Shown here: piece after piece, positions 502 to 55,873 of the stretch
Numbering within the stretch: position 1 is the first letter of the stretch
How the letters are laid out: each line of letters starts with the position of its first letter
Source: an uncultured Aquimarina sp.
GTDB taxonomy: Bacteria > Bacteroidota > Bacteroidia > Flavobacteriales > Flavobacteriaceae
Direction: 5' to 3'
DNA length: 64,000 bases
NCBI GenBank assembly: GCA_947500845.1
Contig: CANMTP010000015.1
Span: forward strand, 1 to 64,000
Translations under genes and position numbers: made by a program
Notes under the pieces: generated by a model
Database searches by the model: none
What the model was told of the DNA's origin: nothing
Seen by the model: the letters and a program-made list of their open reading frames with translations, nothing else

Positions 502-523
502 GAAGGAATTTGGTTAATTTCCA

Positions 524-919
524 GTGGAGTCGGAGGGATTCGAACCCTCGTCCAAACAAGTAATACAATAGCTTTCTACACGTTTAGTTTTTGTTTAATT
601 TTCGTCGATAAGAAAGACCAAAAACCGCCAACTTATCGCTTATTCTCAATTAAGTTTCAAAACAATATCAAGATCCTATTGTTTCTAGGTTTACTTTTAC
701 GATACCTCATGATCAATCGCCGCAAACCAAGGCTCTTGAGAGGTATCCTGCTTGCCCACCTAGTGGGCCGAGGCATTATCCTACTATATTCAGATTATGC
801 AGCTAGGGCGTAGTTATTCTCGCCGTTTAAAAAGATGAAATAGATATTTACGAGCATTAATTTCATAGCTCGACGTGCTTACCATCCTATTAATCTCGCT
901 GTCAAAACCAGTCGACCCC
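524..919 (-). ncRNA. ssrA: Transfer-messenger RNA (tmRNA)
   Basis: This RNA rescues ribosomes stalled on broken mRNAs and adds a degradation tag. On the minus strand it starts with GGGGUCGACUGGUUUUGACA and ends with a T-arm GGUUCGAAUCCC and the acceptor strand CGACUCCA. The acceptor stem pairs GGGGUCG with CGACUCC, with one G-U. A tag frame reads GENNYALAA followed by UAA (stop at 795-797; resume codon probably GGC at 822-824). This fits tags known from Flavobacteriia. The terminal CCA is not fully encoded and would be added after transcription. The exact 3' end is uncertain by a base or two. Confidence 0.95.
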
Positions 920-15167: not shown

Positions 15168-15626
15168 ATGAAAATTGACGATACAAATTGGGAAATTCTT
15201 CATTGTTTACAACAAAATGCAAGGTTATCTAACGCGGAGATTGGAAGAAAAGTGGGGTTAAGCTCTCCAGCAGTGGCAGAGCGAATAAAGAAAATGGAAG
15301 ATTATGGTGTTTTAAAAGGTTATAAAGCCGAGGTTTCTTATACTAAAACAGGATATCAACTTAAAGCGATGATAACTCTTAGAGCATTTATGGGACGTCT
15401 AAAACCTTTTTTGCTAAAAGTTTCAGAGTTTAGCGAGGTGTTAAATTGTTATCGAATCACAGGAAATGAAAATATTATTATGGAGGTCGTACTACGTGAT
15501 CAGATTCATTTGCAAGAGTTTATTGATAGATTAATTACATACGGAGAAGTTAAAACTCATATTATACTTTCTAATTTGATAGAAAACAATCCAATCATAA
15601 ATGCGTTAATTTCTAAAGAATCATAA
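15168..15626 (+). CDS. Lrp/AsnC family transcriptional regulator
   Basis: This 152-residue protein has an N-terminal winged helix (DDTNWEILHCLQQNARLSNA, then EIGRKVGLSSPAVAERIKKM) and a C-terminal RAM/AsnC ligand domain (residues 65-150; CYRITGNENIIMEVVLRD). Such proteins bind DNA as oligomers and respond to amino acids. A TATTTTTG box lies 18 bp upstream. The first copy of a repeated structured RNA begins about 55 bp after its stop. Its targets are unknown; the nearby AgcS amino-acid symporter is a reasonable candidate but not shown. Confidence 0.93.
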   Translation: MKIDDTNWEILHCLQQNARLSNAEIGRKVGLSSPAVAERIKKMEDYGVLKGYKAEVSYTKTGYQLKAMITLRAFMGRLKPFLLKVSEFSEVLNCYRITGNENIIMEVVLRDQIHLQEFIDRLITYGEVKTHIILSNLIENNPIINALISKES

Positions 15627-15681
15627 ACTTATCTTTGGCATAAATTTTGACATATAAAATGTTGAAAATCATTTCAATCTT

Positions 15682-15762
15682 GTGTGAGGACATTAGTTTA
15701 GTGAACTAAAGAGAGTACAGGGGAGACAAAAAAACATCTGAATTCATTCAGATGTTTTTTTA
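15682..15762 (+). ncRNA. Repeated structured RNA, copy 1
   Basis: The conserved core GTGTGAGGACATTAG … CTAAAGAGAGTAC (15682-15718) occurs three times in 2.3 kb. In this copy TTAGTT-tagtg-AACTAA gives the apical hairpin. The core is followed by a terminator, ACATCTGAATTCATTCAGATGT plus seven Ts (15734-15760). There is no good reading frame. The 5' end is not defined; this copy lacks the 16-nt upstream motif of copies 2 and 3. It could be a standalone sRNA or a 3' RNA processed from the Lrp transcript. I cannot name the family; Flavo-1 is a candidate to test. Confidence 0.6.
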
Positions 15763-15849
15763 TTTGATATTGGATTAGATTTTATACATTTATAAAGTAT
15801 AGATACTGTCTCATTTCTATGTAATTATAAATAAATTTTGGGGTAAATC

Positions 15850-17268
15850 GTGAAAATAGTATTCTTTAATTCTTGTTGTGTAGTTTTTCTTTTTGTATCT
15901 CTATTTGGATACTCTCAAAATACCTTGACTCTTAAAAAAGGAATCGTTGTAGATTCTTTATTGGTGCCCAACACTAACAATGATTTTAGTATTTACTTGC
16001 CAAAGAGTTTCGAAATGAATAGGAATTGGCCAGTGCTTTTTGGTTTTAATTCGCAAAGAAGAGCAAGTAATTTAACAAGATTATATAGAGAAGCAGCTGA
16101 AGAGTTTGGTTATATTGTCGCCATAAGTAATTTTGCCGAAGGACAAGATCTTAAAGAAAAAGTGATATATGTATCCACTTTTATGGATTACATCTTTTCT
16201 GTTTTTCCGATTCAAAAAGATAGGGTTTATGTTACCGGGATAGACCAAGATGCAAAACTAATGAGCTTGCTACCTGCACTTAATAATAAAGAAGTGTTTG
16301 GAGTTATCGCAATTGGCGATAGCCATTATTACAATTCTAAAATAAAAATAGCAAAGAATTTTTCCTATTTTGGTGTTTTAAATATCAACAACTTTCGATA
16401 TAAGGATTTTATTAAAAATAAAGAATATCTCAAAAGAAAAGCAATAGAGGCTGATGTTCTTACTTATGAAGGAACGTCGGACTATCCTTATCCTAAACTC
16501 CTTAAAAAACCGCTTTCTACATTTTCTTTACAGGCCATGGCTAAAGGTAGAATACCTAAGGACTCAACTTGGGTCCGAAATCTATTCCAACATGAATTGA
16601 ATGAGGCGGTTAAAGAGTTGAATCAAGGTAGGTTCGTTAATGCATATGAAGAATTAAAAAGGGTGCGTGCGAAGTTTCGTCTTTTTCTTGATACTAGTTC
16701 TCTGCTTGAAAAGGAGAAGCAAATAAAGAAAAGCAGGGGATATAAAAAGCAAAAACGATTAAAATCTAAATATGCTAACCAGGAAAGTTTCTTTAGATAT
16801 ACATATCTGTTATCACTAAAGGAAGATGTTGCAGAAGAAAAATATGAAAACCTTGGCTGGTGGCAATATCAAATGTCAGAACTTGATACGTTGGCATTCA
16901 AGAATGAAAAGTATGCCCAAAACATGGTACTTAGAGTGAAAGGATTTCTTAAGAATGCTATAGGTGAATATAAACAGACTCTTTCTGAAAAGAGAAAAAA
17001 TTTCGAAAAGAAAATGTTTCTTTCTATACTAAGTACTATAGTTGATAAAAAAGATTTTGAGTCTTATAGAGAGATTATTTCTTTAAGTGCCCAAGATCAG
17101 GATTATCAAACAGCCTTATTTTATTTGGAAAAACTACTGGTTAACGAATTCACCGATATGGATGCTCTTTATAGTATTGAGGGTACGTTGGCACTAAGGA
17201 TGTCTAAAGAATATAATGATTTGATCAAAAAATACCTTGGGACTTCAAAGTATTTCTTTTCAAATTAG
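15850..17268 (+). CDS. Secreted esterase-like protein lacking the serine nucleophile
   Basis: This 472-residue protein starts at GTG 15850 and has a signal peptide ending near residue 22 (FVSLFGYSQ). Residues 35-210 look like an alpha/beta-hydrolase of the PHB-depolymerase/esterase type: a strand pair FSIYLPKSF, PVLFGFNSQ, and DRVYVTGIDQDAKLMSLLPA. The last stretch aligns with the family elbow VYVTGxSxGG, but Asp132 stands where the Ser should be and both flanking Gly are changed, so it is probably not catalytic. Residues 240-472 are helical and basic, possibly TPR-like. It is flanked on both sides by copies of the repeated RNA. Its role is unknown. Confidence 0.7.
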   Translation: MKIVFFNSCCVVFLFVSLFGYSQNTLTLKKGIVVDSLLVPNTNNDFSIYLPKSFEMNRNWPVLFGFNSQRRASNLTRLYREAAEEFGYIVAISNFAEGQDLKEKVIYVSTFMDYIFSVFPIQKDRVYVTGIDQDAKLMSLLPALNNKEVFGVIAIGDSHYYNSKIKIAKNFSYFGVLNINNFRYKDFIKNKEYLKRKAIEADVLTYEGTSDYPYPKLLKKPLSTFSLQAMAKGRIPKDSTWVRNLFQHELNEAVKELNQGRFVNAYEELKRVRAKFRLFLDTSSLLEKEKQIKKSRGYKKQKRLKSKYANQESFFRYTYLLSLKEDVAEEKYENLGWWQYQMSELDTLAFKNEKYAQNMVLRVKGFLKNAIGEYKQTLSEKRKNFEKKMFLSILSTIVDKKDFESYREIISLSAQDQDYQTALFYLEKLLVNEFTDMDALYSIEGTLALRMSKEYNDLIKKYLGTSKYFFSN

Positions 17269-17285
17269 ATTGAAATCATAAAATT

Positions 17286-17301
17286 TTGTGTATTTCATCG
17301 A
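17286..17301 (+). promoter_or_regulatory. Shared upstream motif TTGTGTATTTCATCGA, copy a
   Basis: This 16-nt sequence is identical at 17801-17816 and differs by one base at 55858-55873. Here it lies 180 bp before the core of RNA copy 2. It could hold a promoter -33 element (TTG) and a regulator site. Confidence 0.5.
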
Positions 17302-17453
17302 TTTAATACGTTTTTTGCCGTCATAATTTTGGAATTCATAATTTTTTTATACTATATTTACTATATCTTAAAAATACTTGATGTATCATCCAGAATTAAT
17401 ATTTTTGAGCTGCGTGACGATGCAGATTTAAAATCTTAGTTTGGAATACATCA

Positions 17454-17562
17454 GGGACAAATTAGGTGTGAGGACATTAGTCTAAAGACCTCAAATCTTG
17501 AAGCTAAAGAGAGTACGTAATTTGCCCGAATATAGAAAGCGCTTTCTACAAGCGCTTTTTTG
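17454..17562 (+). ncRNA. Repeated structured RNA, copy 2
   Basis: The core GTGTGAGGACATTAG … CTAAAGAGAGTAC is at 17466-17516. An outer helix pairs AAATTA with TAATTT and GTG with TAC, enclosing an internal loop TGAGGACA/AGAGAG, then the TTAG/CTAA helix and an inner AAGA/TCTT stem. A terminator AGCGCTTTCTACAAGCGCT plus a T-run follows (17539-17561). Homology with copy 3 continues upstream (TGACGAT, then TTTGG…CATCAGG), so the transcript may start near 17320 and be about 240 nt. No protein frame is conserved between copies. Confidence 0.68.
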
Positions 17563-17800
17563 TTTTCAAATGATTTTTGTCTAGACATTTCTAATTTGGC
17601 AATAGTGTTTTGTAATCATGATCTTAGGAATCGAAACACATGTTAAGCTGGCAGGATGATCTATTTGAAAATGACAGCGTAACTCTAACAAAACAAATTT
17701 TATACTATAGTATGCACTCCAGCCTTGATAATATATTTTACTAGTAAAAGTTATTTCGTAATAAACATATATATTTAAATAACGGCTATTTATGCAATAT

Positions 17801-17816
17801 TTGTGTATTTCATCGA
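17801..17816 (+). promoter_or_regulatory. Shared upstream motif TTGTGTATTTCATCGA, copy b
   Basis: Identical to 17286-17301. It lies 154 bp before the core of RNA copy 3 and is followed by TTATTTGC, a possible -7 box. Confidence 0.5.
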
Positions 17817-17940
17817 ATTTATTTGCATTTAATCTTTTGTTTTTCTACATTAGTAATGTACAAAATAGGTACAGGTGTTCTTAAAATTTTCAGTTTTAAA
17901 GATTATGACGATAATCAGGCGAACAAAAATTTTTGGTTCA

Positions 17941-18063
17941 TCAGGTAAAATTAAGTGTGAGGACATTAGCTTAGAGACCCCAAATCTAAAACTAAAGAGA
18001 GTACATAATTTGCCCCAAAATATAAAAAAGCATCTGCTATCCCCAAAAGGCAGATGCTTTTTT
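17941..18063 (+). ncRNA. Repeated structured RNA, copy 3
   Basis: The core GTGTGAGGACATTAG … CTAAAGAGAGTAC is at 17955-18004. The inner stem here is TAGA/TCTA, compared with AAGA/TCTT in copy 2, a compensating change that supports the fold. The outer AAATTA/TAATTT helix is kept. A strong terminator, GCATCTGC…GCAGATGC followed by six Ts (18030-18063), ends it just before the convergent DJ-1-like gene. Upstream homology to copy 2 reaches back to the TTGTGTATTTCATCGA motif. Standalone sRNA is the likeliest reading. Confidence 0.7.
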
Positions 18064-18071
18064 ATGAGCAT

Positions 18072-18788
18072 CTATTTGTTGATCACTAAATGAGGGACAT
18101 TTTCTAATTTCCAATCAATAACGAGTCCTTTTGCCAAAGATTTGGCGATTTCAGTTCCGTATAGATTTTCACATAGATACAACGCAGCTTCAAAACTTTT
18201 GGCTCCTCCAACAGAGGTGATGTATTTCCCATCATGGACAAATAACACATCTTTTCTAATATCCAGTTTTGGAAACATCGTTCTCATTTTATCAATATCG
18301 CTCGGAAATGTTGTAGAAACTATATTAGAGAGTATTCCTGCTTTGGCAAGTACAAAAGCTCCATCACAATGTGAAGTTACATAAGTAGCTGTTTTGTTTA
18401 CTTCCTGAACAAAATTGATCATATCTGTATCTTCTAAATCAGTATCTAAATGATGTTCTGCACTAGGAACCACCAAGATATCAATTTTAGGAATTGAATC
18501 TGTCTGATAATTATAATCAGGGATAATTTTAACACCTTCAAAGGTTACTATGGGTTTGTCGGTATTTGCAACTGTAAAAACATTCATCTGCTTAATATTT
18601 TCACGATATTGAGTATGTTGAAAAATATCATAAGGTGCAGTAAACTCTGTATTATATGTACCATCCATGATAAGAAATGCTACATTGTACCGATTGGGGG
18701 CAAGTTCAGGAAACACTTTTTCGTTCTTAATGGGTTTTGTACAACTCACTACTACCAACAGAAGTAGAATAAAAAACTTTTTTTTCAT
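18072..18788 (-). CDS. DJ-1/PfpI-family lipoprotein
   Basis: This 238-residue protein has a lipobox signal (MKKKFFILLLLVVVSC) and a DJ-1/PfpI (class I glutamine amidotransferase-like) domain from about residue 34. The nucleophile elbow is visible in YVTSHCDGAFVLAKAG, with Cys in the expected place, and the strand IDILVVPSAEHH precedes it. In this family the domain is also found in AraC-type sensors and isonitrile hydratases; here no HTH is present. The start ATG overlaps the stop of the upstream MFS gene (TAATG), which points to translational coupling. The substrate is unknown; it should face the periplasm. Confidence 0.85.
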   Translation of the reverse strand: MKKKFFILLLLVVVSCTKPIKNEKVFPELAPNRYNVAFLIMDGTYNTEFTAPYDIFQHTQYRENIKQMNVFTVANTDKPIVTFEGVKIIPDYNYQTDSIPKIDILVVPSAEHHLDTDLEDTDMINFVQEVNKTATYVTSHCDGAFVLAKAGILSNIVSTTFPSDIDKMRTMFPKLDIRKDVLFVHDGKYITSVGGAKSFEAALYLCENLYGTEIAKSLAKGLVIDWKLENVPHLVINK

Positions 18789-55857: not shown

Positions 55858-55873
55858 TTGTGTTTTTCATCGA
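55858..55873 (+). promoter_or_regulatory. Shared upstream motif TTGTGTTTTTCATCGA, copy c
   Basis: It differs by one base from the motif at 17286 and 17801. Here it lies about 120 bp before the 215-residue secreted protein and begins an inverted repeat TGTTTTT…AAAAACA. The remaining gap from 55607 shows a terminator and no gene. Confidence 0.5.

Follow-up and report, generated by a model that had tools for sequence, protein, structure and literature searches.

We examined three copies of a structured RNA element that lie within 2.4 kb of a 64,000-nucleotide (nt) stretch of DNA from an uncultured Aquimarina sp. (contig CANMTP010000015.1; this whole stretch is hereafter the window). They belong to a predicted structured RNA family that has no match in Rfam and is previously undescribed. 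In the reading we put forward, to which as a whole we give about an even chance, the copies are terminated small RNA (sRNA) genes of two classes, a sigma-54-driven class B (copy 1) and a C-rich class A (copies 2 and 3), which would have split the two halves of a pseudoknot between them and would act as opposed regulators.

The copies and their family

The 15-mer GTGTGAGGACATTAG occurs in the window with zero mismatches at 15682, 17466 and 17955, as a sequence-only reading of this DNA had reported, each time ahead of its own terminator, and the three terminators indeed differ in sequence (Table 1). Chance would give 0.05 matches at up to two mismatches, and three matches arose in 0 of 100 shuffles. 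The 3′ strand of the core, CTAAAGAGAGTAC, is found in all three copies. Elsewhere in the genome of origin (4.70 Mb) GTGTGAGGACATTAG has just two sites, each with two mismatches; these are at chance level, because the reversed pattern, a control, gives six sites at two mismatches. The folds of copy 1 (15665-15765, z -3.62) and copy 3 (17935-18065, z -4.28) were lower than all 200 shuffles, and that of copy 2 (17440-17570, z -2.68) is less clear, two of 200 shuffles being equally good.

An Rfam 15 scan of the window raised only transfer-messenger RNA (tmRNA; 522-919, minus strand) above its gathering score. Flavo-1 (RF01705), which the sequence-only reading had named as a possible identity, is absent from the 12 Rfam matches that 15600-18100 gives at E up to 10, and the best three of the sub-threshold matches there fall mainly on the terminators. 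In the parts of the open-access literature available on Aquimarina sRNAs, flavobacterial sRNAs, the upstream box described below and C-rich RNAs, the relevant papers were PMC9723704 and PMC2864571 only.

Searched as a gapped exact pattern, the core turned up in 50 of 66 Aquimarina genomes, that of origin among them, and a scan of public contigs (62 stretches) found it in Aquimarina and in a Kordia metagenome-assembled genome. We built two covariance models, R1 from 71 sequences and R2 from 36, and searched 397 sampled Flavobacteriaceae genomes of 237 genera. R1 matched 23 genomes in 16 genera; five weak R1 matches (L174, L178, L179, L180 and L182; E 1.8e-4 to 0.00874) were dropped as chance, because they have no sigma-54 site and are not matched by R2. 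R2 matched 41 genomes in 26 genera including Aquimarina, with a single match per genome in 35 of the 38 matched genomes outside Aquimarina. Among 295 genomes sampled across the class, part of them from the same family, R2 at E 0.001 matched the genome of origin only, and the five g128 genomes in that sample gave no match; both the family-wide and the class-wide R2 searches ran with stricter filters. At the sensitivity used, the predicted family is thus found in Flavobacteriaceae only. The copies in the window score 61.3, 84.6 and 82.5 bits with R1 and 64.5, 62.5 and 71.4 bits with R2 (copies 1 to 3, all three being in both training sets).

Covariation and the conserved internal loop

The 15 pairs specified for alignment A1 form in 89.1% of its cells, a percentage favoured by the structure having been drawn from the same sequences on which it was tested, and ten of them are changed on both sides. 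The covariation score of A1 was 0.341, versus 0.176 for shuffled alignments and no more than 0.150 when the partners were slid; for the more diverse A2 (36 rows, 11 genera) it was 0.502, versus 0.243 and at most 0.167. Apart from the count of pairs changed on both sides, to which we return below, the covariation measures on A1 and A2 were equalled by no shuffle. The strong covariation resides in the predicted outer helix. The internal loop, typically UGAGGACAUU / AAAG-R-N-AGU, is strongly conserved and adjoins a short inner helix; in A2, its 5′ strand GAGGACAUU and 3′ strand AAAG-[AG]-[GCU]-AG are nearly invariant. There G23 A24 face G/C/U72 A73, which could allow tandem G-A pairs such as follow the 3-nt bulge of a kink-turn, with one of the two pairs varying.

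The sequence-only reading had proposed a structured RNA under selection, with a fixed internal loop and variable stems, and the covariation bears this out: covariance models found both further copies in Flavobacteriaceae and covariation in the outer helix, so that neither was lacking. Its details fared less evenly. The outer helix AAATTA/TAATTT that it gave to all three copies holds for copies 2 and 3, and that of copy 1 differs. The compensating change AAGA/TCTT to TAGA/TCTA, which it saw in the inner stem, is borne out when copies 2 and 3 are compared. Across 71 aligned copies, support for this apical stem is modest, its three inner pairs forming in 81.6% of cells and the four pairs tested scoring 0.089 for covariation, versus 0.067 when shuffled (6 of 500 shuffles were as high).

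Two classes with distinct promoter regions

The class set comprises 128 rows, drawn from 55 loci in other Aquimarina genomes and from one Kordia-type locus. The 44 short rows, with a core of up to 40 nt, form class B, and the 84 longer rows form classes A and C; copy 1 of the window is of class B, copies 2 and 3 of class A. A TGG[CT]-type -24/-12 site, an element of the TGG-N9-TG kind, is found with 44 of 44 class B rows versus 1 of 84 longer rows in other Aquimarina genomes. In class B it begins 44-57 nt 5′ of GTGAGG, and shuffled class B upstreams contained a sigma-54 site in 180 of 8800 cases. The genome of origin also encodes RpoN (Sigma54_DBD, E 6.2e-51). With promoter element and rpoN both present, class B RNAs are predicted to be sigma-54-dependent transcripts, and the promoter spacing predicts a start near 15661 for copy 1. 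Where a locus holds both classes, B comes before A on the same strand in 44 of 44 cases (BAA in 22, BA in 21, BAAA in 1); class B is absent from 12 loci of the class set.

Classes A and C have different surroundings. GACGA or GACGG lies upstream in 71 of 82 copies, mostly 50-53 nt 5′ of the core, and a box, GTGTATTT[ACT][AG]TCGA, in 50 of 82, mostly at 154-184 nt upstream. The GACG sits in a hairpin whose stem varies while pairing is kept, G-U included (56 rows from other Aquimarina genomes): the pairs at arm position 4 are GC in 16, AT in 13, GT in 13, TA in 12 and TG in 1, with one of 56 unpaired. We considered a DNA palindrome bound by a dimer and rejected it, as the pattern at arm position 4 fits RNA. 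A nearer box, TTAGTTTG, was tried as the class A promoter and dropped; if the GACG hairpin acts as RNA, the class A start would be upstream of the hairpin and not at TTAGTTTG.

The upstream box, TGTGTATTTCATCGA in the window, is expected there 0.15 times at up to two mismatches. In Aquimarina loci, which had been chosen for the core, 57 of 57 box sites with at most one mismatch lie within 260 nt 5′ of a core. We take the box to be a likely activator site. Four loci on other contigs (L042, L066, L081 and L084) represent a third form, in which this box and hairpin are joined by several CCC(C)AA before the terminator.

A predicted loop-tail pseudoknot and a shared gene neighbourhood outside Aquimarina

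Outside Aquimarina, the sigma-54 pattern is found in 31 of 42 R2 rows. It is in register in 30 (the site starting 18-25 nt before the model) and out of register in one, from genome G368; among rows unused in building R2, 16 of 24 have the in-register site. Most apical loops of these relatives are ACCC-like, and their tails, just 5′ of the terminator, are GGGU-like and complementary to the loops, as in UGCCCA/UGGGCA, UAUACCA/UGGUAUA, ACCUC/GAGGU, GCCU/AGGC and AUCC/GGAU. The RNA duplex energy of loop and tail was -6.01 for matched versus -4.95 for permuted partners (42 rows; 0/20000 permutations), where the rule that cuts the tail seeks a GG-containing stretch and the tails are identical in the matched and permuted sets. 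The result was 9/20000 with one row per genus (n=25) and 30/20000 when g61, g97 and g80 were left out (n=22). This pairing, beyond chance and with covariation, points to a loop-tail pseudoknot in relatives outside Aquimarina. No such pseudoknot was found within Aquimarina class A or class B molecules.

One genome (G096) has a second family copy (L187, 1501-1566), which lacks a sigma-54 site and has a short loop, and in which a terminator-like repeat directly follows the core.

The mostly single-copy form of these genera also tends to keep its place. Among the 34 of these 42 rows whose gene context was examined, the same-strand upstream neighbour belongs to family F0 in 28 and the convergent downstream neighbour to family F1 in 27. 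Pfam, run on one member (L200), identified F0 as an S1/P1 nuclease and F1 as a 2OG-Fe(II) oxygenase, which we read as AlkB-like. Downstream of 30 S1/P1-nuclease loci the RNA is present in four, three found by R2 plus L271, and in a reading by eye was not seen downstream of the other 26. L271 is a divergent homolog missed by R2 that, also by eye, keeps the sigma-54 site, the loop UUACCC, the tail GGGUAA and the terminator. Judging by its spread and synteny, we take the single-copy form to be the older one.

Complementary segments in classes A and B

In Aquimarina the two kinds of segment are found in different classes. Among 82 copies of classes A and C, the loop contains CCC or CCTC in 78 and GGG in one, and the tail contains GGG in one. 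In the 44 class B copies there is no C-rich loop, and GGG is found in the loop of 31, in the tail of 34 and in one or the other of all 44. The window repeats this pattern, copy 1 having a GGGGA tail (15720-15724) versus the C-rich loops of copies 2 and 3, and looks like a pseudoknot divided between molecules. We infer from these segments that class A and class B RNAs may pair in trans.

Table 1. Predicted features of the three copies (positions in the window)
Feature	Position	Strand	Basis
Copy 1, sigma-54-type promoter TGGCATAAATTTTG (-24/-12)	15636..15649	+	sequence, in register
Copy 1 (class B), core helix and internal loop, without C-rich loop	15668..15732	+	
Copy 1, intrinsic terminator	15728..15761	+	16-nt perfect inverted repeat, T run
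Copy 2, upstream box TGTGTATTTCATCGA	17287..17301	+	exact match
Copy 2, 5′ hairpin CTGCGT-GACG-ATGCAG	17410..17425	+	sequence; stem covaries in relatives
Copy 2 (class A), core, C-rich apical loop CCTCAAA, outer helix AAATTA/TAATTT	17452..17530	+	
Copy 2, intrinsic terminator	about 17536..17559	+	sequence and fold
Copy 3, upstream box TGTGTATTTCATCGA	17802..17816	+	exact match
Copy 3, 5′ hairpin GATTAT-GACG-ATAATC	17901..17916	+	sequence; covariation in relatives
Copy 3 (class A), core, apical loop CCCCAAA	17941..18018	+	
Copy 3, intrinsic terminator, loop holding CCCCAAAA	18022..18065	+	16-nt perfect inverted repeat

Between copies 1 and 2 lies an open reading frame (ORF) of 472 amino acids (15850-17268) without a Pfam match.

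C-rich stretches behind the box

The genome of origin holds four exact and five one-mismatch sites of the box, two of the nine being those of copies 2 and 3. At least two CCCC (overlaps counted) occur in the 200-nt stretch at five of the nine sites, or at four of seven without copies 2 and 3; as background, 638 window stretches gave 3.6% and 403 low-GC stretches 1.5%. We regard this association of box and CCCC as a lead. One site (L278) has two CCCC after the box; another (L273) has one and adjoins a downstream DUF6252 gene; at L277 and L281, CCCC was not found after the box.

Other sites differ in what follows the box. Near 59118 of contig C18 (L276), an exact box precedes a short C-rich stretch that has five CCCCAA, lacks the core and includes a terminator-like hairpin whose loop is C-rich. 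Near 132120 of contig C7 (L280), a one-mismatch box precedes a C-rich, terminator-ended stretch, again without the core, in which ACCCCGAA occurs twice. Near 213877 of contig C4 (L279), a one-mismatch box is followed by the leader of a curlin-repeat gene (PF07012) with two C runs of at least four. In the window, a one-mismatch box at 55859-55873 stands ahead of an ORF, without CCCC downstream.

Proposed mechanism

The sequence-only reading took the copies for trans-acting RNAs, and we likewise judge this the most likely mode of action, since the copies appear free-standing and terminated. Taken as a whole, that reading is partly supported. It overlooked the two classes with distinct promoter regions, including the sigma-54 site of copy 1, the loop-tail pseudoknot of the relatives, the C-rich/G-rich split between the classes and the conserved locus elsewhere.

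We propose the following. Duplication would have divided the pseudoknot halves between class A and class B. A signal acting through sigma-54 would cause class B RNA to be made, and its G-rich segments would bind in trans the exposed CCCC of class A. Class B may also bind other box-driven C-rich transcripts, namely the two C-rich stretches and the curlin-repeat gene leader, and class A, made under the activator of the box, would compete. A and B would thus be opposed regulators sharing one scaffold, whose internal loop is perhaps read by one common RNA-binding protein. In the genome of origin, Pfam gave no match to Hfq (PF17209), to RapZ (PF03668, its N-terminal family) or to the L7Ae family (PF01248). 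The boldest part, that an intramolecular lock became a lock between two RNAs, its loop half passing to A and its tail half to B, within a network of C-rich versus G-rich RNAs that takes in the curlin-repeat leader and works where no Hfq was found, we offer tentatively, as a possibility well short of an even chance.

Several observations weigh against this proposal. The RNAs are predicted from sequence, as are the partners and targets proposed for them. Genome-specific covariation between the loops of A and B is absent (-5.12 matched, -5.15 permuted; 45 genomes), and the loop-tail signal is weak (283/20000, or 443/20000 in 37 dereplicated genomes); this permutation test has low power, because both sides are highly conserved. 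In other genera, 12 of the 42 rows lack an in-register sigma-54 site, and the g61 (Kordia-type), g97 and g80 rows pair loop with tail poorly or not at all. As many pairs changed on both sides arose in 13 of 500 shuffles for A1 and in 15 of 500 for A2, and the internal loop differs in several distant rows, which have GAGTA, GAGAA, GAGCA or GTGGA for GAGGA. The link of box and CCCC depends on nine sites and had caught our eye before any count was made, and three of the nine have no CCCC, one being copy 2 with its CCTC.

Little is known of post-transcriptional control in Flavobacteriaceae. What this family adds is an RNA of defined structure with predicted ends, a predicted sigma factor, synteny of its locus across many genera and a pairing rule that can be tested. 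If the split lock is true, it would show trans RNA-RNA regulation arising from an intramolecular fold.

Alternative explanations

The copies could instead be decoys that titrate a protein: the internal loop would bind one protein, sigma-54-made B would displace A from it, and loop complementarity would be secondary. GlmY acting for GlmZ, and CsrB for the targets of CsrA, are precedents of decoy action. The near-invariance of the internal loop in A2, where helices and loops drift, is what such decoys would show, as is the possession by A and B of a common scaffold and separate promoters. Yet loop-tail pairing is left unexplained, none of the three protein families named above was found in the genome of origin, and the loop varies in the more distant rows, for which we have slightly down-weighted an explanation that we hold to be unlikely, though a serious one. 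A different possibility is that A and C are ordinary antisense RNAs, whose CCCC loop silences G-rich sites in messenger RNAs (mRNAs), and that B is an independent sigma-54 sRNA complementary to A by accident. The CCCC loops, the CCCCAAA repeated in class C tails and the missing A-B loop covariation would all suit this. It sits badly, however, with GGG being in the loop or tail of every class B copy and absent from the loop, and likewise from the tail, of 81 of 82 A and C copies, and with B standing ahead of A on the same strand in all 44 loci that hold both; we consider it distinctly improbable.

A structured element followed by a terminator might also be a cis-acting attenuator or riboswitch in an mRNA leader, and the terminator of copy 1 does end about 90 nt 5′ of the same-strand ORF at 15850. 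However, in 33 of the 34 contexts from other genera the next ORF of at least 90 amino acids runs on the opposite strand, and the downstream genes vary among six Aquimarina class B contexts, which makes cis action very improbable. Several copies within one stretch could mean mobile or repeated DNA that does not function as RNA, an explanation rendered scarcely credible by the compensatory changes, the fixed promoter register and the conserved locus. As for a diverged Flavo-1 or another Rfam family, to which we give next to no weight, Flavo-1 is likewise an RNA motif of Bacteroidetes (PMC2864571), but it has no match to the copies, and the Rfam scan, in which only tmRNA reached the gathering score, placed the best three sub-threshold matches in 15600-18100 mainly on terminators, with no family model matching the core at E up to 10. 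We retain, at the strength given above, a family of terminated sRNAs in which a pseudoknot would be split between opposed classes.

Comparison with known systems

In GlmY and GlmZ of enterobacteria, a homologous sRNA pair, one RNA opposes the other and one can be made from a sigma-54 promoter. Classes A and B would resemble them in the shared scaffold, in the possible sigma-54 promoter of one class and in forming an opposed pair; unlike them, the present family has no Rfam match, the RapZ N-terminal family was not found in the genome of origin, and the sequence shows complementary segments instead of a RapZ decoy. The Qrr sRNAs of Vibrio are sigma-54-driven, structured, present in multiple copies and terminated, all of which is predicted for the family here in Aquimarina; the differences are that Hfq was not found in the genome of origin, that Rfam has no match, and that the family has a conserved internal loop and, in relatives, a predicted loop-tail pseudoknot. 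The decoy RNAs CsrB and RsmZ, which have CsrA as their partner, carry repeated short single-stranded motifs, with GGA in loops. A repeated short motif is seen here too, as CCCC in class C and in the other C-rich stretches, and differs in being C-rich.

Closer by lineage is Flavobacterium psychrophilum, where sigma-54 promoters precede genes for chaperones and other envelope-stress functions, a gliding operon and Rfp36, a putative regulatory RNA whose mapped start lies under a sigma-54 (SM4) promoter. Compared by description only, Rfp36 resembles class B in having a sigma-54 promoter, a predicted one in class B, in a related flavobacterium (PMC9723704).

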